Source of the DNA: a virus
DNA: 28,238 nucleotides
Strand: one strand, 5' to 3'
IMG/VR virus record: IMGVR_UViG_3300027851_000103
Location: 1-28,238 of that record
The position numbers were made by a program, and so were the translations under genes. Positions within the stretch are counted from its first letter, which is position 1. Each line of letters opens with the position of its first letter. Positions 684 through 24,994 of the stretch are shown here, in pieces. The notes beneath the pieces were generated by a model. It was not told the DNA's origin. It saw only the letters and a program-made list of their open reading frames with translations, and searched no databases.

Positions 684-710
684 GCACCTGTGTCTTTTAT
701 TCTTGGTTTT

Positions 711-1314: not shown

Positions 1315-1315
1315 T

Positions 1316-1789: not shown

Positions 1790-4068
1790 GCGTCAACCTC
1801 AGGAATAAGTGCGAGAACGGAAAGCGGCAACGGGTCGCGCTGCTGCACGATAAGCGTCGCCTGTTCAACATTCTCAGGCACAATAAGAAGTTCGAGTTCT
1901 TCGGTGCGCAGGCCGTTCGTCCACAGCGGGTCGCGCTTCAGCTCGGTCATATCATTGCGGTTCGGCCCAGCCCACATGCCGCGGCTACGCTCAACACGCG
2001 CGCGCAGTCGCACCGTCTTCTTGCGCCGGCCAATGCCACCTTGTGTATCGCCAATAGGCAGCGACTCGATCTCAGAAACGTAAGGCAAACCGATGTGAAT
2101 CACGCTGGCAGCGACCGGCAACGTGATGCTGCCGTTCGTCACCGTGTCTTGAGGAAGAACTGCGCCATCGGCCAGAATGGCGACAGTTTCCCCTTCCAAG
2201 TGGTCAAGACCTGAAACCGTCGAAACCGGCGAGCCATCATACGTTAGGCCGCAATGAACAAAGAATGCATCCTCAGGCGCGCTTACAAGGCGCGAGGCAA
2301 AGCGCTCAACATAGCGGCGGGTCACGCCGTCGATAGTGCGCTTCACAATCACATACACGGCATCTTCGTTGCCCTCACTGATCGAGCAGACCGACTCGTA
2401 CTCACCGTCAGTCACCTGATGCGTCCATGCGATAAGCTCTTGCTCGCGCATATACGTCATCGTTGCCATCTGGCCGTTATCAAGCACAGCCCACACGACT
2501 GAGTACGGCACTGCCGCATAGGCCCACTCTTGAATCTCACGCCCTTCAAACAGGTGCGACGAGATAACCGAGAGGTCAGAACCCACATAGTTATCAGCAG
2601 AGAACGAGTAGCCAAGGTCGCGAACGATGTTGCCCTTTTCCTGCACGTACAGCACGATGTCACCAATCACGATGGGCGGTACATGGCTGACGCCAATCTC
2701 GCTTTGCAGCCGCACCATCATCGACGAAGGCGTGACAACATCCGAATTGCCGCCAGCCGAGATTTTCCACACGCCGCCGCTGGTCAGAACAAGCAGCTCG
2801 CGGATGGGGACAAAGTGGCGAATCTCGTTGACCTGGCGCGCAGCAATGTTCCGGCTGATTGCGTCATCAGGCTTCGATGGGGTAGAGATGTTGTAGTTCT
2901 TGTACTGGCCAGACTGACTCATATCCAAACCCTGCGGCCTGTTTATCGAGCCGCCTTCTACTGAGCGCTGCTCAAAGTAAGACGAACACTGCGGGTATTT
3001 GCCTGCCGCATCAAACGGGTTGCGCGCTTCAGGCGGCGCATCAAGGGTGTCAGGCTCGATCTTCGTGTCGCGGAACGACCAGTTGTTGCTGCCATCCGGC
3101 ACAGCCTGACCAATGAAGCCGTAAACGCCGTTAGCGCTTTTATAGATGTTCACCTTGCCAGCCGTGGCGGGGGCTGTACCAACAAGTTCAAGATACTCGC
3201 CGGCGTTCCAGTCGGCATCTACCACACCAGCTGCGGTGTATTCAGTGGTTGGCAATGACTCTTCAGCCGTGTCCTCGTCCGTCGATGTCGCCTTATATTT
3301 GTAGTTCTGCGCAGTACCGGCGCCGCTGAATGAGCTGCTCGAAATCGTGGGAGCGCTGATAGAAGGCGCATAGGTTGGCGTCGTCAGCGTCCACGAGTCA
3401 TGGTCGGTGCGGGTCAGTTCGCGCTGCTGATAGCTGCGATGCGTCAGCGTCATCACGTCAGCCGACTGCTTGTATTTCAGAAGCGGGAGGTCAGCGGTCA
3501 CGTATGGCGTCACAAGCGTATAGACGCGCGCCATGCTGCCGCCGCTGGTGTACGCGGTGAATCCGCTGGTGTCGATGGCGTTACCGTCAACGTCATTCAG
3601 CTCGAAAGTATTTGCGCCTGCGTTCACATTCGCCACAACGACCGTCTTGCCGTTCAGCTCGGTCATGCCGACGATGCCGCTAAGCACGAACCAGTCACCG
3701 TTCGACGGGTCAGCGCCAACATAGGTGAGCACACCGGTAGCAGCCTGAGTGATGCCGCCAATGTTCTGCGCATCTTCAAGCACGTATGCGCCGTCTTTGA
3801 TGACGCGCATGTAAAGGTTGCCGAACTCAAGCGCGTAGGTTTGCGTGGTGTTAAATTGAAATGGAATCAGGCGTGTGCGTGCGGCGCTGTTCTTCACCTC
3901 GCCCACAAACATGGTGCCAGGTGTGTTCACCAGACCGCCCGCCCGTGTGACAAGAACATTCTCGCCAACCCTTACACCAGAGCCAAGCGCGGCAAGGTCT
4001 ATACGCCCGTACAATGACGGGGCAACCTCACCCTTGGCAAATGATGGCTGAGGAACCCATTGCGCCAT
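1786..4068 (-). CDS. Large tail/structural protein (tail tube B-position)
   Basis: 760 residues. The N-terminus (SFAKGEVAPSLYGRIDLAALGSGV, then NVLVTRAGGLVNTPGTMFVG and LIPFQFN) is the typical opening of a large tail protein widespread in BPP-1/epsilon15-type and many other podoviruses. The middle, about residues 230-310, is Ser/Thr/Ala-rich and may be an Ig-like or fibronectin-like insert. The C-terminal part holds RRKKTVRLRARVERSRGMWAG. It follows the tail-tube-A-like gene with a 1 nt overlap, the position occupied by gp12 (nozzle) in T7-type order. That functional match is inferred from position, not from visible sequence similarity. No signal peptide or membrane segment was seen. Confidence 0.8.
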   Translation of the reverse strand: MAQWVPQPSFAKGEVAPSLYGRIDLAALGSGVRVGENVLVTRAGGLVNTPGTMFVGEVKNSAARTRLIPFQFNTTQTYALEFGNLYMRVIKDGAYVLEDAQNIGGITQAATGVLTYVGADPSNGDWFVLSGIVGMTELNGKTVVVANVNAGANTFELNDVDGNAIDTSGFTAYTSGGSMARVYTLVTPYVTADLPLLKYKQSADVMTLTHRSYQQRELTRTDHDSWTLTTPTYAPSISAPTISSSSFSGAGTAQNYKYKATSTDEDTAEESLPTTEYTAAGVVDADWNAGEYLELVGTAPATAGKVNIYKSANGVYGFIGQAVPDGSNNWSFRDTKIEPDTLDAPPEARNPFDAAGKYPQCSSYFEQRSVEGGSINRPQGLDMSQSGQYKNYNISTPSKPDDAISRNIAARQVNEIRHFVPIRELLVLTSGGVWKISAGGNSDVVTPSSMMVRLQSEIGVSHVPPIVIGDIVLYVQEKGNIVRDLGYSFSADNYVGSDLSVISSHLFEGREIQEWAYAAVPYSVVWAVLDNGQMATMTYMREQELIAWTHQVTDGEYESVCSISEGNEDAVYVIVKRTIDGVTRRYVERFASRLVSAPEDAFFVHCGLTYDGSPVSTVSGLDHLEGETVAILADGAVLPQDTVTNGSITLPVAASVIHIGLPYVSEIESLPIGDTQGGIGRRKKTVRLRARVERSRGMWAGPNRNDMTELKRDPLWTNGLRTEELELLIVPENVEQATLIVQQRDPLPLSVLALIPEVDA

Positions 4069-4694
4069 TACGAACCTTCGCCGCCGAGATAGCGCAGATA
4101 GTATTCAGGCGTGCCGCCGAGCCGTGCCTCAAGCCAGTCCGGTGCAGCAGGCTCTTCAGCCTCGCCCTCGCTTGCGTCAGCAGCTTGTGCCATGCGCATT
4201 GCATTCATGAATTTGGTTGCGGCTTCCTGCGACTTCGACGGCGCGATGGTCGGAGCCAGGCGGTACGCAAGGCCGAATGCGAATGCGTCAATGAAAGTGG
4301 CATCAAAGAGCAGATCGTTCTCAACGTCGAACGTGAAAACAAGTACCGCATCTTCTTGGTTTGTGTAGAGCACGCGCGTGGTGCCGTCAGCAGACAGGCC
4401 AACCTCGAATGGAATCTTGACGCCAGGCAGCGACGACACGATGTAGCGCGCTTTCACGCAGCCGGTCGGCAGTACATACATATACGTCCACGGCGCTGGG
4501 CCATCGCCAAGCAGCGCAAGGTTCACGCGAACGGTCGCGAAGTTCCACGGGTGTGCGCGCAATGTCGCGCGGCGGGCAACGTCATAGTAAAGCTTGCCGT
4601 AGCGAGCCTCTACGCTTGCCTCGTCGATAGACTGGATGAATGCCTTGTGGCCTATGCCAGCATACGCAAGGTTCAAAATGGAAACCTTAGACAC
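4068..4694 (-). CDS. Tail tubular protein A-like (head-tail adaptor)
   Basis: 208 residues from a GTG at 4694. The segment 'ILNLAYAGIGHKAFIQSIDEASVEA' followed by 'YDVARRATLRAHPWNFATVR' (residues about 5-55) is the hallmark of tail tubular A / gp11-like proteins, which bind below the portal and start the tail tube. The C-terminal region is Ala/Glu-rich and ends YYLRYLGGEGS. A copy of the phage-wide motif lies 16 nt upstream (4710-4725), so this gene may begin a transcription unit or be controlled separately. It overlaps the next gene by 1 nt. Confidence 0.82.
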   Translation of the reverse strand: MSKVSILNLAYAGIGHKAFIQSIDEASVEARYGKLYYDVARRATLRAHPWNFATVRVNLALLGDGPAPWTYMYVLPTGCVKARYIVSSLPGVKIPFEVGLSADGTTRVLYTNQEDAVLVFTFDVENDLLFDATFIDAFAFGLAYRLAPTIAPSKSQEAATKFMNAMRMAQAADASEGEAEEPAAPDWLEARLGGTPEYYLRYLGGEGS

Positions 4695-4709
4695 AGAACG
4701 CCCCGCGGC

Positions 4710-4725
4710 TTGCGATTATCTCAAT
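4710..4725 (-). promoter_or_regulatory. Phage-wide motif copy before tail tube gene
   Basis: The minus strand reads ATTGAGATAATCGCAA, a full match to the minus-side consensus. It lies in the 63 bp gap between the 68-residue gene and the tail-tube-A-like gene. No TTGACA-like box sits 14-18 nt upstream. Confidence 0.65.
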
Positions 4726-4757
4726 ACGAGAGGCGAGGCATTACGCCCCGCCACCCA

Positions 4758-4964
4758 TTACATCACCTCGTCAGCAGCCGGTTCAGGCTCGGCTACCTTG
4801 GGCGTTTCCTTTTTCGATGGCTTCGGCTTGTCTGCCTTGACCTCGATAGGCTCAACAGGGGCCATCCACGAGCCGAGCTTTTCGTTCGCGCCAATGTCGA
4901 ACTCTTCGCCCTTCTCGCGGATGGCACCGCCGTAATAGCCTTTGCTGGTTGCAACGACCTTCAT
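4758..4964 (-). CDS. Small conserved virion-cluster protein
   Basis: 68 residues. The N-terminal half (MKVVATSKGYYGGAIREKGEEFDI ... LGSWMAPVEP) resembles a short conserved protein often encoded next to capsid genes in BPP-1-like and other phages. The motif is 'GYYGG...R..GE.FDI' followed by 'WM.PV'. The second half is a Lys/Pro/Glu-rich low-complexity tail. It lies between the cement protein and the tail tube gene. Function is unknown; a head-completion or small structural role is only suggested by position. Confidence 0.7.
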   Translation of the reverse strand: MKVVATSKGYYGGAIREKGEEFDIGANEKLGSWMAPVEPIEVKADKPKPSKKETPKVAEPEPAADEVM

Positions 4965-4972
4965 GCTAACCT

Positions 4973-5416
4973 CTACAGAGGCGCAGTCTGGTTGCCGGCA
5001 GTTACGCCCGCAGTGATCTTACCAGCAGTGAAGTTACCAGCACCGCCTACGGTGTAGTACAGGCGCATGTACTGGTAGTTCACACCTTTCGGGATGTAGT
5101 CGAAAGGAATCTGGAAGCCAGCCACCAGCTCGGCCTCGGTGTAAGTACCAAGGCTGATGCTTTTGTCAGGCGTGAACGTGTCAGTGCTGTCGAGTTGGAT
5201 TGCGATGGTCAGTGTTCCATCCTCAGCAGCAGTGTCGAAGGTTTCCACCACCTGGATCAGCAGCGGCACCGGAGTGCCCTTGCCTTGGTCCATGTTGATG
5301 TCAGCCGACGCGCCATAGACACGCCCGTTGTCACCGAAGTCGATGACGTTGGTCGAGGCCGCGCTTGCCGTAATGGCCTGCGCGTTCGAGAGTTGAAGTT
5401 TCTTGTCGAAGATCAT
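4973..5416 (-). CDS. Bbp16-like capsid cement/decoration protein
   Basis: 147 residues. It begins MIFDKKLQLSNAQAITASAAS and continues with STNVIDFG and a run of beta strands, including 'GTPVPLLIQVVETFD', 'DGTLTIAIQLDSTD', 'SISLGTYTEAEL' and 'YQYMRLYYTVGG'. This matches the pattern of the Bbp16 family, which binds on the outside of BPP-1-type capsids and stabilises them. It lies 25 nt after the major capsid gene, as expected, and no membrane segment or signal peptide is present. The intergenic sequence has a purine-rich ribosome binding site (GGAAAGGAA on the minus strand). Confidence 0.82.
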   Translation of the reverse strand: MIFDKKLQLSNAQAITASAASTNVIDFGDNGRVYGASADINMDQGKGTPVPLLIQVVETFDTAAEDGTLTIAIQLDSTDTFTPDKSISLGTYTEAELVAGFQIPFDYIPKGVNYQYMRLYYTVGGAGNFTAGKITAGVTAGNQTAPL

Positions 5417-5441
5417 GGTTCTATTCCTTTCCTTCGATGGG

Positions 5442-6431
5442 TTACGCTACAGCGGTTTCGGTGTTGAGCAGCGCATCCGTTTCGCGAATCGGAATGCCGC
5501 GGTAGGTCATCACTTCCTGACCTTCCACTTCACGACGCTCAAGACGCACGAAGTTGTCCGAGCTGCCCTTGTTGGTGGCCAGCGCGTCCAGAACTTCAAG
5601 CATGTCGCGGTTCATGTAGATGACCTGTTTGCCACCGGCCACGCGACGCGATTGCAGCTTGTAGTAAGCATTGCGCATGTAGGTGTAGAGGTCTACAGAG
5701 CCGCCACGAGCATTGCTCACGTCGATGTTCGCGATGCGCGCGTTGTAGCGCCAGTCACGTACAGCAACGCCGAGGTGCCAGGTAAACAGTTCTTCTTTGA
5801 CGAAGTACGGGTTGTTGTTTCCGTCAAGAACACGCTGCTCGCCCTTGTCTTCACGCTTCAGGCCAGCAGTCACGCCCTCGGGGTAGATCATGTGGGTGAA
5901 GTTCTCACCCCAAGTCACAAACCAGATCGAGGTCAGGTCGCTGTCCGAACCGCTTGCGTTCACAACCTGGCTGTTGCTCAGGGTGTTATAACGCGAAGCC
6001 AGACCCTTGATTTTCTCAGGGGTCGTCGCGGTGTCGTGGTAGAAGAAGCCGGTCGAAACTTCTTGGTTCATTGCCTCAAGGAAGCCGCTGGCTTCGTTCA
6101 GGCGAACCTTTGCCGGATTCTTCGAGATGTCCAGCAAGCGCTTATCAACGCTCGACAGGGCTTCAACGAAACCGGTGGTGTCATCGACCTGTTGGGTCAG
6201 GCCCTTGCTTTGAGGAATGCCCTGATAGAGAGCGCCCCACGAAACCGAGGGAAGACCGGTGCGGATGGTGTGACGATGCTTCGTGCCCATGTTGCATTCC
6301 ATGGCAATCGCATCTTCAACGATTGGGTTTTGTTTAGCGAGAACCTCAACAACATCAGCAATGCCACCATCAGGGTCGGTCTGCTTCGCGATGTCGAGAA
6401 GGGTCAGGTTGCTGGCGGTTAAAGTGGCCAT
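5442..6431 (-). CDS. Major capsid protein (BPP-1/epsilon15 type, HK97 fold)
   Basis: 329 residues. Characteristic stretches are 'TLLDIAKQTDPDGGIADVVEVL', 'HRHTIRTGLPSVSWGALYQG', 'FLEAMNQEVSTGFFYHDTATTPEK', 'LTSIWFVTWGENFTHMIYPEG' and 'VAVRDWRYNARIANIDVSNA', all typical of the epsilon15/BPP-1-type major head protein. The length fits the family, which forms T=7 heads. The ATG at 6431 is preferred over the GTG at 6434 because AAGGAG lies 6 nt before it. The scaffold gene is immediately upstream and the cement protein downstream, which is the usual assembly order. Confidence 0.92.
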   Translation of the reverse strand: MATLTASNLTLLDIAKQTDPDGGIADVVEVLAKQNPIVEDAIAMECNMGTKHRHTIRTGLPSVSWGALYQGIPQSKGLTQQVDDTTGFVEALSSVDKRLLDISKNPAKVRLNEASGFLEAMNQEVSTGFFYHDTATTPEKIKGLASRYNTLSNSQVVNASGSDSDLTSIWFVTWGENFTHMIYPEGVTAGLKREDKGEQRVLDGNNNPYFVKEELFTWHLGVAVRDWRYNARIANIDVSNARGGSVDLYTYMRNAYYKLQSRRVAGGKQVIYMNRDMLEVLDALATNKGSSDNFVRLERREVEGQEVMTYRGIPIRETDALLNTETAVA

Positions 6432-6441
6432 CACTTACTCC

Positions 6442-7125
6442 TTAACTTTTTGGTTGATCGTTTGGATAGAGTCGTTGCTCCGCGGTCTTGGCTTTAGCCG
6501 CTGGCTTGCCGAAACCTGGAGTGTCCTCGCGTAGAGCCTGGCCAACTTTTGCGAGTGCCTTGAGCACAGCGGGATGGTTATTCCCGCCTAGCTGTTTGAT
6601 TGCCGCCGAGAAGTCAGCGCCTAAATAGTCACGGCCTACAGCCACCTCGGGGCGCACAGCCTTTGCCGATGCGTCGAAAATATCGGCATCCTTTTTGGCA
6701 TCAGCGGCCCACTGTTTTTGTGTGGCCTTCCACTGCGCCGCCATCTTCTCACCAACCTTGGAGAGGATTTGCGGCCCAAGCTTTTCGACCAGACCTTGCG
6801 CCTGGTCTTTGTTCAGCCCCAGCTCTTTGAAGATGGGCTTGCTAATATCGGCCAGCTCAGCGTCAGCCTCATAGCCCTCGGGAATGGTGAACTCACCGTA
6901 TTCGTCAGCACCATCGGCTGCGGCTTCAGGCTTCTCTTCTTCGCCAACCTTGCCATCAAGCAGGTCGTCGCCATCGTCAGCGCTCTCAGTCTTTTTCGCG
7001 CCAGCGTCTTCAGCACCTTCAGCACCAGCGGCATCGCCAAGAAGATCATCAGCGGCTTCAGTGGCCTCGGTTGCTTCTGTGACTTGCTCGGTTGCGGTTG
7101 TGTCTGCTGCTGCGGCTACGGTCAT
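6442..7125 (-). CDS. Capsid scaffolding protein
   Basis: 227 residues. The N-terminal 90 residues are strongly acidic and rich in Ala, Thr, Glu and Asp. The central part, about residues 85-180, is helical with 'DISKPIFKELGLNKDQAQGLVEKLGPQI' and a Trp/Gln/Lys-rich segment. The C-terminus is basic ('KPAAKAKTAEQRLYPNDQPKS'). This layout and its position directly before the major capsid gene are typical of phage scaffolds, which guide head assembly from the inside and then leave. It overlaps the Bbp19-like gene by 4 nt (ATGA), suggesting coupled translation. Confidence 0.8.
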   Translation of the reverse strand: MTVAAAADTTATEQVTEATEATEAADDLLGDAAGAEGAEDAGAKKTESADDGDDLLDGKVGEEEKPEAAADGADEYGEFTIPEGYEADAELADISKPIFKELGLNKDQAQGLVEKLGPQILSKVGEKMAAQWKATQKQWAADAKKDADIFDASAKAVRPEVAVGRDYLGADFSAAIKQLGGNNHPAVLKALAKVGQALREDTPGFGKPAAKAKTAEQRLYPNDQPKS

Positions 7126-7415
7126 AGATACATCTCTCTATATAGTTTCATGAACCCTTGCGGGTCGTTATCGCGCAGGATTCGAGTAGCCATCAGCCCC
7201 ACAGCGCGCGCCCCTTCGACGCGACCGGATGCTGCGCCTTCAAACGCGTTGATGTTTTCGAGCTGGCACAGCTTGAGGAACTCCCCCAGAACTGTACGGC
7301 CAGACTCCGATGCCAAGACCTCTGAAACGGCAACCGCCAAGCGCTTCTTTTTTTGCGCTTCGGTTTCTTTGCGCCGCCTAGCCTTGTCTTCATCAACGTG
7401 TTCAATCTCAGCCAT
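7122..7415 (-). CDS. Bbp19-like small virion-cluster protein
   Basis: 97 residues. A very basic N-terminal helix (residues 10-30, many Arg/Lys) precedes 'SESGRTVLGEFLKLCQLENINAFEG' and 'GARAVGLMATRIL', the pattern of the Bbp19 family encoded near the portal in BPP-1-like phages. Function is unknown. A copy of the phage-wide motif ends on the A of the start codon, and there is no room for, or sign of, a ribosome binding site. The gene could be read from a leaderless message. It overlaps the scaffold gene by 4 nt. Confidence 0.75.
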   Translation of the reverse strand: MAEIEHVDEDKARRRKETEAQKKKRLAVAVSEVLASESGRTVLGEFLKLCQLENINAFEGAASGRVEGARAVGLMATRILRDNDPQGFMKLYREMYL

Positions 7416-7430
7416 TGCGATTATCTCAAC
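7415..7430 (-). promoter_or_regulatory. Phage-wide motif copy abutting the Bbp19-like start codon
   Basis: The minus strand reads GTTGAGATAATCGCAA and its last A is the A of ATG. The embedded GATAAT resembles a -10 box and would place the transcript start at or next to the start codon. Thirty-eight bp upstream begins a 16 bp element (7453-7468) shared with the site at 10985. Confidence 0.65.
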
Positions 7431-7452
7431 ATATCAAACAAGAAGCGCGCTC

Positions 7453-7468
7453 ACAACGCAGGATATTC
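7453..7468 (-). repeat. 16 bp upstream element, copy 1 of 2
   Basis: The minus strand reads GAATATCCTGCGTTGT. An identical 16-mer lies at 11023-11038. Both copies have exactly the same spacing (38 bp, start to start) to a copy of the phage-wide motif, so each pair may form a two-part promoter or operator. Confidence 0.7.
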
Positions 7469-7482
7469 TGAACGTACAGCCA

Positions 7483-7833
7483 TTAGTGGTTTTGCTTAAC
7501 GGCGACTAAAGTCACATCAAGGTCAGAGCCGGAACCGCCAGATAGCAGCGGGCGAATGAATGCAGCCTTAGTGTAGACGTGCTTCAAGCCAGCAGAGGTG
7601 AATGTTACAGCAGCGCCAGCCTGGTCGGTTGCCGTCACCCAGTTTGAACCGTCATTGCTCGCCTGAATCGTGCAGGTAGCACCACCGAACGTGCCAGTCA
7701 CCTGTACGCTCGCATGCGCAAACGACGAAGCCGCAACCGGCGAACCATCAGAGTTCGCGTTCGTGATCGTTTCCCAAAGAACTTTCATTGCGCCAAAGCC
7801 AAGGTCTTGCGCGACGCCTGCTACTGTTGCCAT
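7483..7833 (-). CDS. Small beta-rich virion-cluster protein
   Basis: 116 residues. The core 'ASVQVTGTFGGATCTIQASNDGSNWVTATDQAGAAVTFTSAGLKHVY' and the end 'FIRPLLSGGSGSDLDVTLVAVKQN' form a compact beta domain. This layout is common in small phage virion proteins (V.V.GTFGGA...SNDG.NW...D..G...). It probably decorates the head or tail, but no specific function is shown. It is encoded between the 118-residue 'MC' protein and the Bbp19-like gene. No membrane segment or signal peptide was seen. Confidence 0.72.
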   Translation of the reverse strand: MATVAGVAQDLGFGAMKVLWETITNANSDGSPVAASSFAHASVQVTGTFGGATCTIQASNDGSNWVTATDQAGAAVTFTSAGLKHVYTKAAFIRPLLSGGSGSDLDVTLVAVKQNH

Positions 7834-7849
7834 AAACTACACTCCCAAT

Positions 7850-8206
7850 CTACTTCGCATATTGTTTTGCTTGACTCTCATGCAAGCGGTTGGCGTATGC
7901 CGTCGCTGCACTTGGCGTTCTAAATTTACCGAGATGCTTGCCAGTTTTCTTAAACATCTCGATGGCCTCTTTATTCGACACGACACGACCATCATCGCTG
8001 ACTGTCGGTATGAGTATCTCACCCTCGTCAGTCCCAATAGAAATCGACCGCACTGTGCTTATTGAGCCGTCGCTGTTCTTAGCAATCGGGCGTGCGTTCA
8101 GGTCTATGTTACCTTTCTCAATCATACCAGACTCTAATGACTCAGGCTTAGCTGAGGAAGCCGGCGGTGGAGGTGGGGGCGCTGAGTTATTGCCTGCTAC
8201 GCACAT
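7850..8206 (-). CDS. Small 'MC...PPPPPP' protein with GNIDLN-type domain
   Basis: 118 residues. It begins MCVAGNNS followed by six prolines (residues about 11-16). The rest ([26 protein letters not shown] ... [31 protein letters not shown]...A.AYA..LH) is a domain I recognise from many phage virion proteins, often as a module of larger internal or tail proteins. Its function is not established to my knowledge. The ATG lies 2 nt beyond the portal stop codon. The MC start resembles that of the 72-residue and gp14-like proteins of this phage. Confidence 0.72.
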
Positions 8207-8208
8207 AA

Positions 8209-9912
8209 CTACACTCCCAACATTGCACCCAGAGCGTTCTGCTGCGGGTTGATTTGCGTTTCACTTAAAGCCTTCGCGGCTTCCACTGCCTGTGCGGCCT
8301 GCACCTGCTGTTCCATTTGCTGCTGCTGCTGCGCGCGGCCTTCGCGAATTGCATCGCGCTTTTCGACCGGCGTGATGATGCGAACAGGCGCGCCACCCTT
8401 GTTGCCGAGAATCTGCGCAGCTTCATCAGCATCAAGATTATCCATCACATCGGGGTTGCCAGTGGCCTGCGCCATCAGCGCAAGGTTCTGCACATAGCCA
8501 ATGGTGCGGGTCACTTCTTCTTGCTCCTGCGCCTGACGGAAGATCGAGAGGAATTGCACCTCAAGCTTCACGTCTTGCAGCTCAGGCGGCGGCGGCGACA
8601 CTAGCATGGGGTTGCCGTCCATATCCTGCGCGGTCATCATCACATCAAACGAGCGATCAATAAGCGGCTCAAGCACCTCGTCGTTCAGGCGCTCAACCAC
8701 AGGGCCGAGGCCGATAAGCTTCTCAGCTTTGCGCTCGATGATTTCAGTCGCGGTGATTTGCCCTCGCTCCATTTGGTGAAGCATCAGGAACAGGTCTTTG
8801 TAGCATCCGTGCTCGATGCGCTGCTGCACTTCCTGAATGTCAGCCACAAAATGCTGAAGGTTCGGCTGCACGGTCTGCGCCGGCGTTGCGTTCACGCCCT
8901 GCCCCATACCGTCAACGAAATTCTGTGTGCCAGGGTCGAGCGAGTATGCAGCCCCGCCGTGCTTCATCGCGCCAGGCAGGTTCACCGCAGGGTCAATTTG
9001 CTTGTCAACCGCGCGCGCCTTTTTCTTTGTCATGGCTTGCAGCGAGATGGCATCGCCAAGCACGTCACTGCCTGGGTGTCCCGTCCCATATGCATCACGG
9101 CCAATGACTTTCCATCGCGGGCACATGAATGGTTTGCTGTCGAAGCCCTCGGTCGCGAGAATTTCGTCTGCGTTCGAGCCTTGCTCCCACCAGATCGAGC
9201 GCCACGGTTTGCCACGCCAGCCGAATAGGCCAGGCATGAACTCGTCATTCGGTTCGATCATGTGGCAGACAACTAGCGTCGAATCGAGCTGGCCACGGTT
9301 GTAGAGATTGCGGGCCGAACGCGAGAGCTTCTCAACGCCAAAGCGGCGGGCTGCCTGCCCTACCGTCCACTGCATCTCACGCACCATCGTGCTGATTTCA
9401 TCGCGGTCATCAGACGCCAGCCAGTATTCACCAATCGTCAGGCCGTAGCCGCGGATAATGTCTTGCCGGTCTTCGTACAGCATGATGACGCCAGTGCCGA
9501 AGGTGCCAAGCTCCTCGTAGCAATTCGACAGTACGTTGTAGACGTTGCTGTTCGCAAACATCCCAGCCATGCGGTTCTCGACTTCTTCAAGCCAAAGCTT
9601 GATTGAGCCGTGCTTCATCATGTCGGGGTCTGGCGTGGTCAGCTTGAACCACGGGCGAGCTGGCGAGGTGATGCCAGCCATGAGGCCAGATGCCAGCGTG
9701 CGCATCGCGTAGGTCGCGGTGCCATCGTAAATCTTACGGGGGCGCTTGGTTCCTCGGTTGGCCTCAGTCGTCAGCCATCGGCCTCGGGTCGGCAGAATGA
9801 AGTCCTGCTGATCTTTCCAGTCGGATTCCCACGGCGTGCGGTCAGCCTTCATCGCCTCGAGCCGGCGTTCAAGATACTGCCGAGGCTTTGATTTGTAGCT
9901 GAAGTCAGCCAT
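8209..9912 (-). CDS. Portal protein (head-tail connector family)
   Basis: 567 residues. The N-terminus '[34 protein letters not shown]' followed by '[32 protein letters not shown]' is diagnostic of the portal / head-to-tail connector family of BPP-1-, epsilon15- and T7-type phages. Twelve copies form the channel through which DNA enters and leaves the head. The C-terminal part (about residues 470-567) is rich in Gln, Ala and Glu and probably forms the long helical crown. Length fits the family. It lies downstream of the terminase genes and upstream of the scaffold and capsid genes. Confidence 0.92.
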
Positions 9913-9922
9913 TCATTACCAC

Positions 9923-10438
9923 CTACTCAGCCGCAATCGCGGAGCCGAGAGAAACAGCAATGCACGCGCTACCCGCGTCACCATCAGAGAAGTATGCAAT
10001 GCAGCCAGCGAACTCGGTTGCGTCCGGCTGCGTGGCCACGGTGTAAACCGGCAGCTCAAGCGGCAGCTCGATGGCAATGCGGTCATCACCAACAGTGGCA
10101 ACCGTGTTACCAAAGCGGTCTTTGGTTTCGCTGATCGTCATCGCACGCGCAGTCAGCGTGTACGTAATCTCATCTTCTTCTTCTTCAGGGTCAGTGACCA
10201 GCGCGCGGAGGCGGTAGTTCGTCGGCTCGTTGATGTCGTTGGCGTACAGTGTGGCCGTAGTGTCCACAGCGTATTCGTTCACCTTGTCCCATACGTTGAG
10301 GCTGGTGCCACGCTCGACAACAACCTTCAGACCCGCATAGGTGCCTGAAAGCGTTAGGTCTACGAATTGGCCAGGGTAGACTGTGACAAGCGCCGATGCG
10401 CCTGCCGCCGTGAATGTTCCGCTTGCGCTCGTTGCCAT
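9923..10438 (-). CDS. Beta-rich virion-cluster protein, function unknown
   Basis: 171 residues. The first ~100 residues resemble a small beta sandwich ('ALVTVYPGQFVDLTLSGTYAGLKVVVERG...WDKVNEYAVDTTATLYANDI...YRLRALVTD'). There is an acidic loop (residues about 83-90, PEEEEDE), then 'ITYTLTARAMTISETKDRFGNTVATV' and a hydrophobic end. It lies between the 72-residue 'MC' protein and the portal, where related phages often carry a head decoration or fibre-like gene. I do not recognise a named family. Confidence 0.65.
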   Translation of the reverse strand: MATSASGTFTAAGASALVTVYPGQFVDLTLSGTYAGLKVVVERGTSLNVWDKVNEYAVDTTATLYANDINEPTNYRLRALVTDPEEEEDEITYTLTARAMTISETKDRFGNTVATVGDDRIAIELPLELPVYTVATQPDATEFAGCIAYFSDGDAGSACIAVSLGSAIAAE

Positions 10439-10447
10439 GGCTTGCCC

Positions 10448-10666
10448 CTACTGTCCGATAAGTTTCTTTTGCATCGTGTTTGCTTCGCCGGTCACACCCA
10501 TGGGGCTAGTGGCGACGGTTGATGCCGAACCTGCTGCTGCACGAGCACGGCTACGTTCATCGGTACGTGCGCGCTGCACGGCTTCATCAGCCTGCTTCGG
10601 CGGTGCGGGCGGCTTTACAGGTTCAGGCGGTGGCGGGGGCGCGGCGGGCGCAGAGAACATGCACAT
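10448..10666 (-). CDS. Small 'MC...PPPPP...KLIGQ' phage protein
   Basis: 72 residues starting MCMFSAPAAPPPPPEPVK. A proline-rich N-terminus is followed by a charged helical stretch (EAVQRARTDERSRARAAAG) and a Ser/Thr/Gly/Pro loop, ending QKKLIGQ. Small proteins with this plan (MC start, proline run, Arg-rich helix, '(K)TLLG' type end) are common next to portal or terminase genes in podoviruses and other phages. Their role is unknown. A longer in-frame start at 10903 would overlap the upstream membrane gene widely; the ATG at 10666, 2 nt past that gene's stop, is preferred. Confidence 0.7.
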   Translation of the reverse strand: MCMFSAPAAPPPPPEPVKPPAPPKQADEAVQRARTDERSRARAAAGSASTVATSPMGVTGEANTMQKKLIGQ

Positions 10667-10668
10667 AG

Positions 10669-10974
10669 CTAAACTCCAAGGATTACGATGATTGCGGTCA
10701 GGTAGCCGGCAGCTACCGAGAGCGCTGGCAGTGTTTGCGATAAGCGCCAAAGGCCGTAGAGCTTCTCGTACTCTTCGCCCTTCTCTTCGCTGTATGCCAT
10801 GAGCTTCGTGTAAAGCTCTTCGTGCATGTACGCGCTGGCCAGCGACAAGACGCCAAAGATGCCAGGGATAATGCCCGCGTCGATGCGGCGGCCAAGAAGC
10901 CAACCCGAGATAACGATGAGCAAAAGCGTCAGGATGTAGCCGATGACGAGTGCGTTAATTGAACGATTGTACAT
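10669..10974 (-). CDS. Three-helix inner-membrane protein (holin candidate)
   Basis: 101 residues with three hydrophobic segments: about residues 9-27 (LVIGYILTLLLIVISGWLL), 32-50 (after a charged RRID turn) and 82-101. A charged loop EEKGEEYEKLYG separates the last two. GGAG lies a few bases before the ATG, and a copy of the phage-wide motif lies just upstream. The size and number of helices would fit a class I holin, but no lysozyme gene is adjacent, and many phages have unrelated membrane proteins here. No specific family was recognised. Confidence 0.65.
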   Translation of the reverse strand: MYNRSINALVIGYILTLLLIVISGWLLGRRIDAGIIPGIFGVLSLASAYMHEELYTKLMAYSEEKGEEYEKLYGLWRLSQTLPALSVAAGYLTAIIVILGV

Positions 10975-10984
10975 GCATGCTCCG

Positions 10985-11000
10985 TTGCGATTTCCTCAAT
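10985..11000 (-). promoter_or_regulatory. Phage-wide motif copy before the membrane protein gene
   Basis: The minus strand reads ATTGAGGAAATCGCAA, differing from the consensus at one position. It lies 10 nt before the ATG at 10974. The 16 bp upstream element at 11023-11038 has the same spacing to it as the pair at 7415/7453. Confidence 0.62.
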
Positions 11001-11022
11001 ATGCCAGAATTGCGGCAAGGCA

Positions 11023-11038
11023 ACAACGCAGGATATTC
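11023..11038 (-). repeat. 16 bp upstream element, copy 2 of 2
   Basis: Identical on the minus strand (GAATATCCTGCGTTGT) to 7453-7468. It lies in the short gap after the terminase stop codon. Confidence 0.7.
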
Positions 11039-11051
11039 CTAACATTGATGG

Positions 11052-12515
11052 CTACACAGCGAACGGGTCGTAGTCAGGTCGCCGCGACTGAGTGCGTGGC
11101 GCTGCGCCGTACACCGACTGAGCAAGCACAGGGAATGCAAACGTCAGTGCTAAGGCATCAGCTCGGTTGGGCGACGGAAGGCCGCGGTCTTTGAGCGCCT
11201 CTTTTGGCTCAAGCTGAATCTTGCCGTCCATGCGCGGCACGGTTTCAATGCCGGTCAGGTCGTCGCGCAGCACGTTGTCTTTGGGTATTGCACCGCCAGA
11301 CTTCAGCCAGTCGCGCATCTCGCCCCACATTTCAGCACGCTTGTTCAGGTAGCCGGCGCTGGTCGGCTTGCCCGAGAACCAGACGATTTGCCAGCCACGC
11401 CCCATGGTGCTGCCTGCTGACACGATGCCAGTGCCATAGCCGCCATCGACAAACACGGCCTGAGCTTTGTGCTCGTCTTGCAAGCGGGCGAGAATGTTGG
11501 CCACATGCACATCGTTGTCGTTCTTCGGCATGGTGAGAAGAACCTCGCTAAAAAGACCCTGACGCTTGACAATCACCAGCTCGTCATCACCAGACCATGC
11601 AGGGTCAACGCCGAGAATGACCGGCGCGAAGTCGTATTGCTCTTTGCGTAGGAAGCGGCCAAATGCTGCATCCACATCGGCTTCGGAGATGAACTGCTTG
11701 GCTGACATCGAGGGGAATACGCCGCGAACACGCACCTTCACAAAGTCTGAGTCTTCGCCGTAATCCTCAACCCACTTGGCGATCTGCACCTTGTTCGTGC
11801 CATCGACCGTGCGGCTGTCGATCTGCCTGTTCACCCATCGGTGCTTCCATCTGCGGAAGCACTCACGGAAGCGACCAGTTGCCCGTGTTGGGTTACCAAA
11901 TGCAATCCAGATGATTTCGGTGCCCTCGTCGGTCAGCGCGCCTTCTGCCACCTCCCACACCTTGTCAGCGATTGCTGAGCCTTCGTCGAAAATGAGGATG
12001 ATGCGCTTGCCCTCGTTGTGAAGACCAGCGAACGCCTCGGTGTTGTTCTCGCTCCACGGCACAGCGTCGGCGCGCCATGAGCGGTCATGCTGCGGGTCGG
12101 TCGAGAAGATTGCGGTCGCTGTGGGTTTGAACCAGTGGTTGTTCTCGCCAAGCCTGAACCACTTGGTGATCTCAGGCCAGGTCTTTGTCATGAGCTGCTT
12201 CTCGGTGTTCGCCGTAACGACCACCTTGCAGTCTTCGCAGGTAGACATGCCCCAGTGCGTCACCTGCCCGATGAGCGCTGACTTGCCAATGCCGTGGCCG
12301 GATGCGACTGAGATGAGAAGAGGCTGGTGCCGTGTTGCCTTATTGCGCAAGTGCTTGCCGATGACGCCAAGGATGTCATCCTGCCACTCGCGTGGGCCAT
12401 TGCTGTTCGACAGCTCGCCTTCGCCCCATGGGTAAGCATAACGCACAAAGCCACGAGGGTCGTGGGTATAGCGCGCGATGTCTTCGATTAGCTGCTGCTC
12501 GGGGTCAACCGCCAT
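11052..12515 (-). CDS. terL: Terminase large subunit
   Basis: 487 residues; packages DNA into the head using ATP and cuts it with a nuclease domain. Walker A is at about residues 71-79 (ASGHGIGKS) and Walker B with the catalytic acid at about 171-178 (RIILIFDE). The C-terminal RNase H-like nuclease carries 'LGVDPAWSGDDE' (D304), 'AVFVDGGYGTG' (D357) and 'NRADALALTFA' near residue 460, which give the expected acidic metal ligands. All key motifs are intact and the length is normal. It is preceded by the small subunit and a tiny membrane peptide gene. Confidence 0.95.
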   Translation of the reverse strand: MAVDPEQQLIEDIARYTHDPRGFVRYAYPWGEGELSNSNGPREWQDDILGVIGKHLRNKATRHQPLLISVASGHGIGKSALIGQVTHWGMSTCEDCKVVVTANTEKQLMTKTWPEITKWFRLGENNHWFKPTATAIFSTDPQHDRSWRADAVPWSENNTEAFAGLHNEGKRIILIFDEGSAIADKVWEVAEGALTDEGTEIIWIAFGNPTRATGRFRECFRRWKHRWVNRQIDSRTVDGTNKVQIAKWVEDYGEDSDFVKVRVRGVFPSMSAKQFISEADVDAAFGRFLRKEQYDFAPVILGVDPAWSGDDELVIVKRQGLFSEVLLTMPKNDNDVHVANILARLQDEHKAQAVFVDGGYGTGIVSAGSTMGRGWQIVWFSGKPTSAGYLNKRAEMWGEMRDWLKSGGAIPKDNVLRDDLTGIETVPRMDGKIQLEPKEALKDRGLPSPNRADALALTFAFPVLAQSVYGAAPRTQSRRPDYDPFAV

Positions 12516-12518
12516 GGG

Positions 12519-12611
12519 CTATACGAATGCGGCACCAATCAGCATGCCGATGACGATGATGGCCAGCACAGCGACGGTGCCAGCGGTTACGAGCAATAGG
12601 TCTTTAAGCAT
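12519..12611 (-). CDS. Tiny single-helix membrane peptide between terminase genes
   Basis: 30 residues (MLKDLLLVTAGTVAVLAIIV and further hydrophobic residues), nearly all one transmembrane segment. Three ATG codons follow each other (12617, 12614, 12611). The last is preferred because GTGAGG lies 6 nt upstream of it. The gene overlaps the end of the small terminase gene by 8 nt and ends 3 nt before the large terminase start, so it is embedded in the packaging operon and would be translated with it. No family was recognised. Confidence 0.5.
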   Translation of the reverse strand: MLKDLLLVTAGTVAVLAIIVIGMLIGAAFV

Positions 12612-13152
12612 CATCATCCTCACCCTCGGCAGCTTTTGCACGAGCACGCGCCTTTGCAATGCGGTCAGCAAGGGCAACGGTTCCGCTGTGCTCGATTTGT
12701 TCTTTGAACGCTTGTACAGCAACGTGCTTACCAAGCAGCTCAGTGCGCTTGATGCGACTATCAAGCTTGATCTTGCGCGTGTAGCCAATCAGGTTGCCCT
12801 GCTTGTCGCGCTCCTCGAACGTGTCGATGCCCTGCACTAAGCCCTGACGCCAGATTAGCGGCCATTGGCTTGGCGGTTTGATTGCACCGGTTTCGTCGTA
12901 CAGGTCAGAAATATCGGCCTCAGCTTCAGCGGCCAAACGCTTGAGCACCCACGCCGCGTCAATCTTGGCTTCCCGCGCAACTTCAGCCATCCCCTCAGCA
13001 ATAGCCTTAGCAACTTCAGGGTACTTCATGATGGCAACAGCCTGCTGTTCTGCGGACTTCGCGCTATAACCAGCTTCAATTGCCGCCTGCTTGCCATTGC
13101 GACAAATGAGGTATCGTTCAACGAACAGCCTGTGCTTTGGGTTAAGTGCCAT
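12604..13152 (-). CDS. terS: Terminase small subunit
   Basis: 182 residues. The N-terminal DNA-binding domain 'MALNPKHRLFVERYLICRNGKQAAIEAGYSAKSAEQQAVAIMKYPEVAKAI' is typical of the Terminase_2 (XtmA) family, with a helix-turn-helix at about residues 18-45. The middle is helical ('AWVLKRLAAEAEADISDLYDETG') and probably makes the ring. 'PSQWPLIWRQGLVQGIDTFEERDKQG' and 'KIKLDSRIKRTELLGKHVAVQAF' are also family-typical. The protein recognises phage DNA and starts packaging. It is the first gene of the minus-strand virion unit, with a motif copy 20 nt upstream. Confidence 0.9.
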   Translation of the reverse strand: MALNPKHRLFVERYLICRNGKQAAIEAGYSAKSAEQQAVAIMKYPEVAKAIAEGMAEVAREAKIDAAWVLKRLAAEAEADISDLYDETGAIKPPSQWPLIWRQGLVQGIDTFEERDKQGNLIGYTRKIKLDSRIKRTELLGKHVAVQAFKEQIEHSGTVALADRIAKARARAKAAEGEDDDA

Positions 13153-13171
13153 GCCATCAGAATAGCATTGC

Positions 13172-13187
13172 TTGCGATTTTCTCAAC
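13172..13187 (-). promoter_or_regulatory. Phage-wide motif copy before terminase small subunit
   Basis: The minus strand reads GTTGAGAAAATCGCAA, one mismatch to the consensus. It lies 20 nt before the ATG at 13152. Just upstream on the same strand is GGATTATCC (13191-13199). Confidence 0.62.
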
Positions 13188-13213
13188 GATGGATAATCCG
13201 AACAAAAACGGCT

Positions 13214-13444
13214 GTCCCACCGTCCCCATCTAGTCCCCGTTTAGATTGTCAGAACATGGGACAGAAAAAACCCAATAACTCCAATATATTATATACTATG
13301 TCCCTCTTGTCCCTCTTCTATTTGGTAAAAAGGTATAATGGTTGGTAGTGGGTATATGCATGTTCACATAATCATTACAGTATGTAGAAGTATCCCATTT
13401 CTGTGGTGTCACCATGAGCTATGTCTCGGGACAGGGACAGGGAC
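13214..13444. repeat. Cluster of nine GTCCC/GGGAC motifs
   Basis: GTCCC at 13214, 13222, 13233, 13300 and 13309; GGGAC at 13258, 13428, 13434 and 13440. The left group points one way and the last three copies the other (GGGACAGGGACAGGGAC, 6 bp period). A 9 bp tandem repeat TGTCCCTCT occupies 13299-13316. A pentamer would be expected about once or less in this length, counting both strands. Confidence 0.75.
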
Positions 13445-13504
13445 GAATAAACCATTGTAAAACCTCAATTCACAAACAATCCGCTAACGTAACGATATTT
13501 GGCG

Positions 13505-13520
13505 TTGCGGTTATCTCAAT
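13505..13520 (-). promoter_or_regulatory. Phage-wide motif copy in the divergent region
   Basis: The minus strand reads ATTGAGATAACCGCAA, one mismatch to the consensus. It has the orientation of the minus-side sites but lies closer to the plus-strand gene at 13571, so it could serve leftward transcription or act as an operator for the rightward promoter. Confidence 0.6.
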
Positions 13521-13570
13521 GCTCATGTAGCTTCAATTTACAAATTCTATAATAAGAAACGGAGTCGTTA

Positions 13571-13771
13571 ATGCGTAAATTTACACGCGAACAGAGGTGT
13601 GATGCGGCGCTAATTTGTCGTCGCTGGAGAATGGAAAAAGGTCTATCCCAGTATCAGGCTGCTAAGATTCTCGAAACACACGCGCCAATTATTTCGCTAG
13701 CCGAGAGCGCAGATCATCGCTGCCCAAAGTGGCTCGTCGCTACATTCTTATATGGGATGGGTGATTTATGA
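13571..13771 (+). CDS. Small XRE-type HTH regulator
   Basis: 66 residues. 'ALICRRWRMEKGLSQYQAAKILETHAPIISLAESADHRCPKWLVATF' (residues about 14-60) forms a helix-turn-helix of the XRE/Cro type, although the recognition helix is unusual. It is the first gene of the rightward unit and overlaps the primase-helicase start by 4 nt (ATGA), so it is probably co-translated. CGGAG lies before the ATG and a TATAAT box at 13548-13553. It may control the GTCCC cluster or the motif at 13505, but that is untested. A role as a Cro-like early regulator is an inference. Confidence 0.65.
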   Translation: MRKFTREQRCDAALICRRWRMEKGLSQYQAAKILETHAPIISLAESADHRCPKWLVATFLYGMGDL

Positions 13772-16224
13772 GCCTCTACGATACCGACAAAATCCGCGCA
13801 GACTACCCTGTGAGCCGTGCCGTTGAGGCTGCTGGCATCAAGCTCACGCGCGACGGGCAAGAGTTCAAGGCATGCTGCCCCTTCCACAAAGAGCGCACAC
13901 CCAGCTTCACGATTAACGACGCAAAGGGCTTCTACCACTGTTTTGCGTGCTCAGCCCACGGCGACGTGGTGGACTTTGTGAAGGCATATCACAGCGTCAG
14001 CTTTCGCGAGGCATGCGCCATCATCACTGGCGACGAACCGGCACCCGAGGGTGAGCGTGAAGAACGAGCAAGCAAGGCTGTAGACGTATATGCTGGCCTG
14101 ACTGGTTTGCCAGCGCCGCAGGAAGTATGGCAAGCGGGCAAGCGCACACCTCTTATATATAACCCCAAGCGCGCCGATGACGAGAAGCGCCGCTTTGTAC
14201 GCTACACGCCAAGCATGGTGTTTCCCTATCGCAAGCCATCGGGCGAGATAGGCGGCTACGTCCTGCGCATCGACCTTGATGGCGGCGGCAAGATCACCCC
14301 AACCATCCGCTATGCACAATTGCCAGATGGCACCGAAGGCTGGACGCACTGGGCTTTCAAAGACCCGCGGCCACTATACGGGCTGGACAGAATGGCAGCA
14401 GCGCCGAACGCTCAGGTGTTCGTGTGCGAGGGTGAGAAGGCAGCCGATGCCTGCGCGCGCCTGCTTGGCGTTGTCGCTGTGGCGTGGCCAGGCGGTACGA
14501 ACGCGGTTGAGAAGGTGAACTGGCCGTTGCTGCGCGGGCGCAAGGTCGTGCTGTGGCCGGATGCCGACCCCGTTGGTTGGGATGCGATGCAGCGTGTGGC
14601 TGTTGCCCTGCAAGGCATTGCCGCCGAGGTGAAGATCATCGACAGCCGCGACCATGCCGTGAAGGGATGGGATGCAGCCGATGCCGAAGCCGATGGCATG
14701 AGTAAAGCCGACGCACTGGCGTGGGGCAAGGCACGTATAAGCATATGGCGGCCAGAGATGGCAGCCAGTGAGGGGGATGCCTCTACCCGTAAGGATGAGG
14801 TTGCGAGTGCGCACGCATTGGCTGGAAATGGTCAGCCATCCCCCAACCCTACCCCAAGTGTTGAGATAAAAGCAACGCAGCAAGAGAAGCCAGAACCAGC
14901 GCCCGAGCCTAAGAAAAAGCCAAAGCCGCGCCTGACAGTGATCGAGGCAGGTGAGCCGCACCCAGACCTGTGGCGCAACCGGCTGGTGGTGAAAGAAGAC
15001 GGCGCGCCAAAACCACGAAGCGTCGAAAACGGCATGCTGACTTTGCAATACCACGACGCCATGGCCGGTTCGCTGGTTTACGATGCCTTTGCCGATATGG
15101 TCATGTTCACCCGCCGCCCGCCATGGGAGAAAGAAGATGGCAAATGGCACCCCCGCCCTATTCGCGATGATGATGCCATCGCATGCGCCGGTTGGCTTGA
15201 GCGACCCGAGGCAGGCTCGCTAGGCTTGAAGCCGCACGAGGTGCAGGCATGCATGATGCGCGTGGCGAAGGCGAACGAGGTAGACCCAGCGCGCGAGTGG
15301 CTTGAAGCACAGGTGTGGGATGGCACCGAGCGCATAAACCACTGGCTTAGCGACTTTTGCGAGGCCGAGAGCACAGCGTTCGTCACCACAGTGGCGCGCA
15401 AGTTCCTTATCAGCGCCGTGAAGCGTGTGATGGAGCCAGGCTGCAAGGTCGATGCGATGCTTATTCTCGAAGGCTCACAGGGCTTGGGCAAGTCAGCGGC
15501 ATTGCGCGTGCTGGGCACATGGGGTGGCCGTTCGTACTTCACCGACCAGGTGGACGACATCAACAACAAGGACGCGTTGATTCAGATTCAGGGTGTGGCC
15601 GTGATCGAGTTCGCTGAGATGGACACGCTCAATAAGGCTGACACCGACAACATCAAGAAGTTCATCACCCGTCAGGTTGACCGCTACCGACCGCCCTATG
15701 GCCGTGTGCTGGTAGACAGACCACGCCGCTGTGTGTTCGCCGGCACCGTGAACCCAGGCGGCAACGGGTACTTGAAAGACCCCACAGGCGCGCGCCGGTT
15801 CTGGCCAGTGGCCGTGGGAAATATCGACCTTGATGGGCTGGCCAAGGCAGTGCCGCAGCTTTGGGCTGAAGCCGTAGCCGCATGGCGTGCGGGCGAGCGC
15901 AACTGGATTGACGACCCCGAGGTGATGAAGCTGGCGAGCGACGAGCAAAGCGCACGGTATGAAGACGACCCGTGGGCTGAGCTGATCGACCGCCACCTGC
16001 TGCATGTGGATGCCATCACCATCACCGAGCTGATGGAGAAGCTTGACATCCCACCAGAGCGTCGCGACCGGCGCGCATCAAACCGCATTGGCGCGCACCT
16101 GCGTCATCGCGGCTGGTCGAATCGCAAAGACTACCGCCCTCACCCACGGGCTAACCCTCAGCGTCGATTCTATGCGCCGACAAGCAACCTCGTGGATGAG
16201 CAAGGCGAGATCGAGTTCACTTAA
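13768..16224 (+). CDS. Primase-helicase fusion: CHC2 zinc finger, Toprim, VapE-type ATPase
   Basis: 818 residues; the phage replication primase and helicase. The N-terminal CHC2 zinc finger has C37, H40, C58 and C61 (CCPFH...YHCFAC). The Toprim domain has E221 (CEGEKAADA) and D265/D267 (LWPDADPVGWD). A Pro/Lys/Glu-rich linker covers about residues 335-390. The C-terminal virulence-associated E (VapE) ATPase has Walker A at about 569-576 (GSQGLGKS), 'VAVIEFAEMDTL', 'RPPYGR' and 'GARRFWPV'. All key residues are present. The linker carries the 30 bp GDASTRKDEV repeat and a 15/16 match to the phage-wide motif at 14860, which suggests that two once separate genes were fused. Confidence 0.93.
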   Translation: MSLYDTDKIRADYPVSRAVEAAGIKLTRDGQEFKACCPFHKERTPSFTINDAKGFYHCFACSAHGDVVDFVKAYHSVSFREACAIITGDEPAPEGEREERASKAVDVYAGLTGLPAPQEVWQAGKRTPLIYNPKRADDEKRRFVRYTPSMVFPYRKPSGEIGGYVLRIDLDGGGKITPTIRYAQLPDGTEGWTHWAFKDPRPLYGLDRMAAAPNAQVFVCEGEKAADACARLLGVVAVAWPGGTNAVEKVNWPLLRGRKVVLWPDADPVGWDAMQRVAVALQGIAAEVKIIDSRDHAVKGWDAADAEADGMSKADALAWGKARISIWRPEMAASEGDASTRKDEVASAHALAGNGQPSPNPTPSVEIKATQQEKPEPAPEPKKKPKPRLTVIEAGEPHPDLWRNRLVVKEDGAPKPRSVENGMLTLQYHDAMAGSLVYDAFADMVMFTRRPPWEKEDGKWHPRPIRDDDAIACAGWLERPEAGSLGLKPHEVQACMMRVAKANEVDPAREWLEAQVWDGTERINHWLSDFCEAESTAFVTTVARKFLISAVKRVMEPGCKVDAMLILEGSQGLGKSAALRVLGTWGGRSYFTDQVDDINNKDALIQIQGVAVIEFAEMDTLNKADTDNIKKFITRQVDRYRPPYGRVLVDRPRRCVFAGTVNPGGNGYLKDPTGARRFWPVAVGNIDLDGLAKAVPQLWAEAVAAWRAGERNWIDDPEVMKLASDEQSARYEDDPWAELIDRHLLHVDAITITELMEKLDIPPERRDRRASNRIGAHLRHRGWSNRKDYRPHPRANPQRRFYAPTSNLVDEQGEIEFT
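14772..14801 (+). repeat. 30 bp direct repeat, copy 1 (encodes GDASTRKDEV)
   Basis: It starts GGGGGATGCC and ends GGATGAGGT, and is identical at all 30 bases to 20795-20824. Both copies are read in the same frame as GDASTRKDEV. CATCCCCC at 14837-14844 can pair with the starting GGGGGATG, so the whole unit may extend to about 14855. Confidence 0.85.
14860..14876 (+). promoter_or_regulatory. Motif-like sequence inside the primase linker
   Basis: GTTGAGATAAAAGCAAC matches RTTGAGATAATCGCAA at 14 of 16 positions, here on the plus strand and inside a coding region. It directly follows the GDASTRKDEV unit. It may be a relic of an intergenic site or act inside the gene. Confidence 0.35.
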
Positions 16225-17273: not shown

Positions 17274-17384
17274 ATGACACGCTTACTCAACATCACATTG
17301 CTAGCACTGCTTATAGCCATGCCGTTTGCGGCTGATATTGGCTACAGCAAATGGGTGAAAATGGAGCAGGAACGCAATCAGTAG
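17274..17384 (+). CDS. 36-aa membrane or secreted peptide
   Basis: 36 residues: a short basic start (MTRLLN), a hydrophobic stretch (residues 6-20) and a charged tail. It could be a single-pass membrane peptide; 'PFAAD' would also fit signal peptidase cleavage. GGGAGG lies about 8 nt before the ATG and the gene starts 2 nt after the previous stop. No homolog was recognised. Confidence 0.45.
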   Translation: MTRLLNITLLALLIAMPFAADIGYSKWVKMEQERNQ

Positions 17385-17392
17385 GAGGATTT

Positions 17393-18142
17393 GTGTCTAA
17401 GAAATTTGAACTAACATCGGAAACGACAATTCATTTCGGAAAGAAATTATACCGCATCAAGGCGCTGGTGTCATTTGGCAACGTTGCTGCTGGCGATCTA
17501 GGTGGCTTTGTTGAGAAAGAAGAAAACCTAGAGCAGCACGGCAATGCTTGGGTGTCCGGCAATGCTCAGGTGTCCGGCAATGCTTGGGTGTACGGCAATG
17601 CTTGGGTGTCCGGCAATGCTCAGGTGTCCGGCAATGCTTGGGTGTACGGCGATGCTCAGGTGTACGGCAATGCTTGGGTGTCCGGCAATGCTTGGGTGTC
17701 CGGCAATGCTCAGGTGTACGACAATGCTTGGGTGTACGGCGATGCTCAGGTGTACGGCAATGCTCAGGTGTCCGGCAATGCTCAGGTGTCCGGCAATGCT
17801 TGGGTGTACGACAATGCTTGGGTGTCCGGCAATGCTCGGGTGTACGACAATGCTTGGGTGTCCGGCAATGCTCGGGTGTACGGCGATGCTCAGGTGTACG
17901 GCGATGCTCAGGTGTACGACAATGCTCAAATCATCTGGATATCAAAAATTGGCAGCGAATTAGGAACGCTAACCGGCTTCAAAGACAAAGATGGCCAACT
18001 GATTTTAACGCGTGGTTGCTTCATCGGAACGGCGGAGCAGTTTGTTGAGGCCGTCAGCGAGAAGCATGGCGACTCAAAGATTGCTCGTGAATATGCCCTT
18101 GCAGTCGAGTTGATAAAGCTTCGTCTGTCGGAGGATGTATGA
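17393..18142 (+). CDS. Hexapeptide-repeat (left-handed beta-helix-like) phage protein
   Basis: 249 residues from a GTG at 17393, chosen because AGGAGG lies 4 nt before it; an in-frame ATG at 17351 has no such site. Residues 1-49 hold 'IKALVSFGNVAAGDLGGFVEKEENL', a typical lead-in. Residues 50-181 are 22 hexapeptide units of the type [GD][ND]A[WQR]V[SY], with regular spacing expected for a stacked beta helix. The C-terminal 'IGSELGTLTGFKDKDGQLILTRGCFIGTAEQFVEAV' is also typical of this prophage family. The biochemical role is unknown; similar proteins have been called putative transferases only from the repeat. It ends in an ATGA overlap with the next gene. Confidence 0.8.
   Translation: MSKKFELTSETTIHFGKKLYRIKALVSFGNVAAGDLGGFVEKEENLEQHGNAWVSGNAQVSGNAWVYGNAWVSGNAQVSGNAWVYGDAQVYGNAWVSGNAWVSGNAQVYDNAWVYGDAQVYGNAQVSGNAQVSGNAWVYDNAWVSGNARVYDNAWVSGNARVYGDAQVYGDAQVYDNAQIIWISKIGSELGTLTGFKDKDGQLILTRGCFIGTAEQFVEAVSEKHGDSKIAREYALAVELIKLRLSEDV
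17540..17935 (+). repeat. 22-unit, 18 bp tandem repeat inside the hexapeptide gene
   Basis: Units differ at only a few bases: GGC/GAC, AAT/GAT, TGG/CAG/CGG and TCC/TAC. The last unit is degenerate. No stop occurs in this stretch in several other frames, which creates long false reading frames on both strands. Confidence 0.95.
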
Positions 18143-24877: not shown

Positions 24878-24937
24878 AAAAACTCACCAGTTAGATTTTC
24901 ACAACCATACCATTTCGTAAATCACAACGCAACATTA

Positions 24938-24967: not shown

Positions 24968-24994
24968 ACCTGACCCTAACCAAGGAGGCCGAAC

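Follow-up and report, generated by a model that had tools for sequence, protein, structure and literature searches.

A cluster of short facing repeats at positions 13212–13444 of an IMG/VR virus contig (hereafter, the window, 28,238 bp in all) is proposed here to serve a tailed phage as a SaPI/PICI-type replication origin, one that is read by the phage's own VapE primase-helicase. We regard this assignment, which draws on repeat layout and locus comparisons, as probable; in simpler terms, the array is most likely the site where the phage's replication protein binds to start DNA copying. The array lies between two divergent gene units. To its left, the minus strand encodes the terminase small subunit (terS; PF03592; 12604–13152), the large subunit (terL), a portal protein (PF12236), a capsid protein (GP7), and other structural genes. 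To its right, the plus strand encodes HTH66, a 66-aa HTH-like ORF without a family match (13571–13771) that overlaps the start of VapE (13768–16224) by 4 nt, followed by VapE and then by genes of early type, RecT and an exonuclease among them. The original prediction had taken the primase-helicase as the neighbor of the repeats; it is second in the operon, and the immediate neighbor is HTH66.

Nine copies of one pentamer define the array, five as GTCCC (13214, 13222, 13233, 13300, and 13309) and four as GGGAC (13258, 13428, 13434, and 13440), exactly as had been predicted for 13214–13444, and these amount to half of the 18 copies in the window. When the intergenic region (13153–13570) was shuffled 5000 times with its dinucleotides preserved, nine GTCCC/GGGAC were never reached, and some 5-mer of whatever sequence attained nine or more copies in only ~1.4% of these shuffles. 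Scans at k = 5, 6, and 7 turned up no second facing array in the window's non-coding DNA. GTCCC looked avoided in the rest of the genome when compared with dinucleotide shuffles (18 copies against 38) but not when compared with an order-3 model (13 against 17.9), and the idea was dropped.

The array can be divided into an outer module, two inner iteron groups, and a core. The left outer module, CTGTCCCACCGTCC..GGGACAG (13212–13264, plus strand), which was recognized from its sequence and by blind retrieval in 32 other viral contigs (see below), consists of three plus-strand GTCCC iteron cores (13214–13218, 13222–13226, and 13233–13237) followed by one on the minus strand, read as GGGAC on the plus strand (13258–13262). 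An AT-rich spacer (13265–13298) separates it from the inner left doublet, TGTCCCTCTTGTCCCTCT (13299–13316, plus strand), which is the 9-bp tandem TGTCCCTCT and holds GTCCC at 13300–13304 and 13309–13313, 9 bp apart; the 42-bp start-to-start distance across the spacer is close to the 41–44 of four other arrays (L048, L058, L233, and L193). The core (13314–13427, 114 bp) is presumed to be the region of melting and loading, and its GC content is 37% compared to 56% for the window. It is closed by the inner right triplet, GGGACAGGGACAGGGAC (13428–13444, minus strand), with a period of 6 bp. Both this triplet and the 9-bp tandem had been singled out in the original prediction, as had the facing of the two sides around an AT-rich core, which holds for the inner groups, with the refinement that the left group has an inward GGGAC of its own (13258). 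Overall the order is >>> < / >> / core / <<<, with start-to-start distances of > 8 > 11 > 25 < 42 > 9 > 119 < 6 < 6 <, and a right outer module is absent. Since six of 126 possible strings conform to the orientation grammar, the order of the array by itself carries little evidential weight.

In PICI origins, an AT-rich region always lies between two iteron sets, an organization stated to be known from no other bacterial replicon (PMC6092414), and the SaPI Rep protein recognizes the origin iterons via its C-terminal domain (PMC7581432). The window shares this arrangement with the SaPI/PICI origin and its PriRep protein, having two short-iteron sets that face each other across an AT-rich stretch and an adjoining VapE-type primase-helicase (PMC6092414, PMC7581432). 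Unlike SaPIs and PICIs, which as satellites lack a full structural module, the window belongs to a tailed phage that itself encodes a capsid protein, a portal, and the small and large terminase subunits; its array lies 5′ rather than 3′ of the operon (the next ORF begins 17 bp after VapE), is without a right outer module, and is built from the iteron GTCCC. The placement of this origin, 5′ of the operon and common to the divergent terminase unit, with the right outer module missing, is thus atypical. A further parallel is found in SCCmec elements, where the C-terminal domain of the initiator helicase Cch2 binds 5-nt iterons (PMC7581432). Cch2 and its putative origin resemble the system proposed here in this respect, but the helicase belongs to the D5/Primase_Cterm-type family, and only three iterons and no facing arrays have been described.

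VapE, the proposed initiator, comprises a CHC2 zinc domain, a toprim-like region, a VapE helicase domain (PF05272), and a predicted winged-helix C-terminus. Its profile matched PDB entry 7pds, SaPI PriRep1 bound to dsDNA (E = 2e-72), and chains of the same entry were the best PDB matches of its AlphaFold model (TM 0.72–0.74, normalized by target). The last 80 residues were predicted to form helices at 737–744, 752–758, and 768–780 and strands at 784–788 and 798–802, in a block with pLDDT mostly 88–96; the predicted winged helix at residues 737–802 (15976–16173, plus strand) is the proposed reader of the iterons. Used as a single-sequence query against viral contigs, VapE retrieved no relatives, and VapE loci were instead found by scans with VapE alignments.

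We surveyed 226 VapE loci, which were reduced to 163 non-redundant loci by removal of those more than 70% identical. Strong facing-repeat arrays, defined by a score of −9.5 or below (the best of 120 shuffled loci scored −8.2), were present in 62 of the 163; the scan kept the best array per locus, and the remaining loci had no strong array in the DNA examined. Fifty-two of the 62 had their center no more than 600 bp 3′ of the VapE stop, where ~6% would be expected under uniform placement, as estimated from locus lengths. Loci that combine a TerL relative with a VapE homolog (L060, L048, and L058) show the same array layout in the stretch from VapE to terS, with the repeat units GTCCCAG, GTCCCAC, and GTCACAG. 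The original prediction had looked to conservation of the pentamers in relatives, and this was borne out for the type of array but not for the closest VapE relatives of the window: its nearest homologs (L091, L256, L257, L092, L176, and L093; about 38–44% identity) had no array, several of them over most of the contig, and neither did L268, whose VapE C-terminus is closest to that of the window, in the DNA examined. Facing-array candidates in L284, L293, and L315 were not convincing upon inspection. One contig (G010, the contig of L258) appears to carry two different VapE genes, at 4334–6802 and 47029–49272. Alternating purine-pyrimidine tracts, which can form Z-DNA, reach up to 55 nt inside arrays 3′ of VapE (L251, L216, L210, L103, L111, L060, and others), and in 34 of 52 arrays they equaled or exceeded the 95th percentile for the array's own shuffles; the longest in the window array, 12 nt, is not unusual.

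Arrays built from GTCCC were also found at L171, L060, L048, L233, L193, and L153, and spacing similar to that of the window was seen in L233, L048, and L098. Close in design is Pseudomonas phage LPPA36, which has CTGTCCCACCGTCC at the same outer position in an array of > 8 > 10 > 22 < 33 > 8 > 100 < 9 < 8 <. LPPA36 and related Pseudomonas phages and prophages have in common with the window the outer module, GTCCC iterons, near-identical spacing, and a VapE neighbor; in contrast to the window, their array lies 3′ of VapE, has a right outer module, and has a core with alternating purine-pyrimidine stretches. We consider this unannotated array, found here, a putative origin. A blind search of viral contigs with the pattern CTGTCCCACCGTCC-N15-45-GGGACAG matched 33 contigs, one of them a near-identical contig of the window phage, where about one chance match is expected (an estimate that assumes tens of billions of bases). 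VapE was within the stretch in 28 of the 33, and the element was 381–451 bp 3′ of VapE in all 28; in the remaining four, three had the element near one end of the stretch and one (L346) looks unrelated. Because many of the matches are close relatives (22 distinct arrays), they stand for perhaps three independent lineages rather than 28. Two exact gapped patterns spanning the whole inner array had no matches in viral contigs.

Comparisons across loci suggest that repeat sequence tracks the VapE C-terminal domain. Among 68 loci, identity in this domain was the best predictor of repeat-sequence similarity (standardized beta 0.34, permutation P = 0.001, P values being indicative because the loci are mutually related), followed by the helicase (beta 0.20) and, lowest, the primase (beta 0.10). 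Natural swaps show the same pattern. L048 and L058 are 98% identical in the N-terminal part and 45% in the C-terminal domain and have no repeat in common; L141 and L115 (helicase 82%, C-terminal domain 47%) likewise have none in common; and L123 and L096, with 41% identity in the N-terminal part and 85% in the C-terminal domain, do have repeats in common. The association of arrays with VapE is therefore general and strong, while the partnership between the window's array and its own VapE is one that we infer, given the 5′ position, the lack of a right outer module, the relatives without arrays, and a VapE C-terminus just 12–22% identical to those at the loci of the most similar arrays.

We envision that the winged-helix C-terminus of VapE (residues 737–802) would bind the GTCCC iterons, and that the two inward-facing inner groups would load two oppositely oriented VapE hexamers. 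The AT-rich core would melt, and VapE would unwind outward and prime, giving bidirectional replication; the probable role of the outer module is to reinforce loading or to regulate initiation. GC skew, which had been suggested as a check, does change direction near the array, but gene orientation changes there too, and the signal is confounded.

A regulator array for both divergent units had been considered as likely as an origin. Under such an explanation, HTH66 or another phage regulator would bind the pentamers to regulate the two divergent promoters, those of packaging and of replication, and the array would have no origin function. The position between two divergent units, one of which begins with a small HTH-like protein, is what one would expect of an operator, and a 5′ location suits a regulatory site. 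However, no relative of HTH66 turned up in 50,697 phage records or in the ORFs immediately preceding VapE at array-bearing loci, the same type of array occurs 3′ of VapE beside unrelated neighbors, and promoter-like sites were few, with none found within the array. Moreover, a divergent HTH pair that looks like a lysogeny switch lies elsewhere (24671–25354), comprising a 68-aa protein with a weak, below-cut-off match to carph-isopro and a 119-aa HTH_3 protein, with no GTCCC between the two genes. A lysogeny operator would separate a repressor from a divergent early gene, and the array is flanked instead by terS and HTH66-VapE, the CI-like pair being at the distant site. We now consider a pure operator unlikely, whereas locus comparison favors the other half of the original prediction, iterons of a replication origin, and specifies them as the SaPI type with a VapE/PriRep helicase.

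It is more doubtful still that the repeats are genuine SaPI-type iterons surviving as a vestige, or serving as a copy-control or incompatibility site, with the active origin elsewhere in the ~46-kb genome. The atypical 5′ position, the missing right outer module, and the nearest VapE relatives without arrays would all be explained in this way, yet no other facing array was found in the window's non-coding DNA, and just four scattered GTCCC/GGGAC occur in the remaining 17.7 kb of the genome. The start of terS only 60 bp from the array, together with a near-identical contig (L002/G001) that starts inside the array at 13296, raises the question of a packaging or end-recognition site (cos/pac). 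We judge this very improbable, as other genes intervene between array and terS in LPPA36, L060, L048, and L058, and it is VapE that the arrays accompany; a single contig end does not amount to a terminus, and the other end of L002/G001 appears to meet the right end of the window, which points to a circle broken in assembly. This contig (L002/L329, 30,977 bp) is identical to window positions 1–13296 and reaches 17.7 kb past the left end of the window, and its far end has ~18 nt in common with the window's right end, which suggests that the two form a circle of about 45.8 kb. At the end of the window is a fold-back palindrome (28134–28238), probably an assembly or amplification artifact, and among the window's other features is a gene (17351–18142) for a protein with seven YdcK beta-solenoid repeats, whose DNA is strongly repetitive.

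Returning to a SaPI/PICI-type origin read by VapE, the position of the array between divergent units means that bound VapE may also affect both promoters. A broader reading, which we hold only tentatively, is that the array is both the origin and the operator of the two units, and that VapE phages have a readable code in common, whereby the winged-helix C-terminus determines which iteron sequence is used and is swapped along with the origin. If this dual use were true, VapE loading would fire replication and would also repress or time both its own operon and the terminase/late operon, thereby tying copy number to the point at which the phage turns from replication to packaging.

An origin layout that was called unique to satellites in 2018 appears to be widespread beside VapE in phages and prophages; prior accounts were sought in the open-access literature, and earlier ones on phages may exist outside it. 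Satellites and phages may accordingly have a single replication module in common and pass it between them. The arrays with matched C-terminal domains, and the natural swaps among them, would make the origin-recognition code of self-loading helicases directly testable, and the same set would offer a route to the origins of uncultured phages from sequence.
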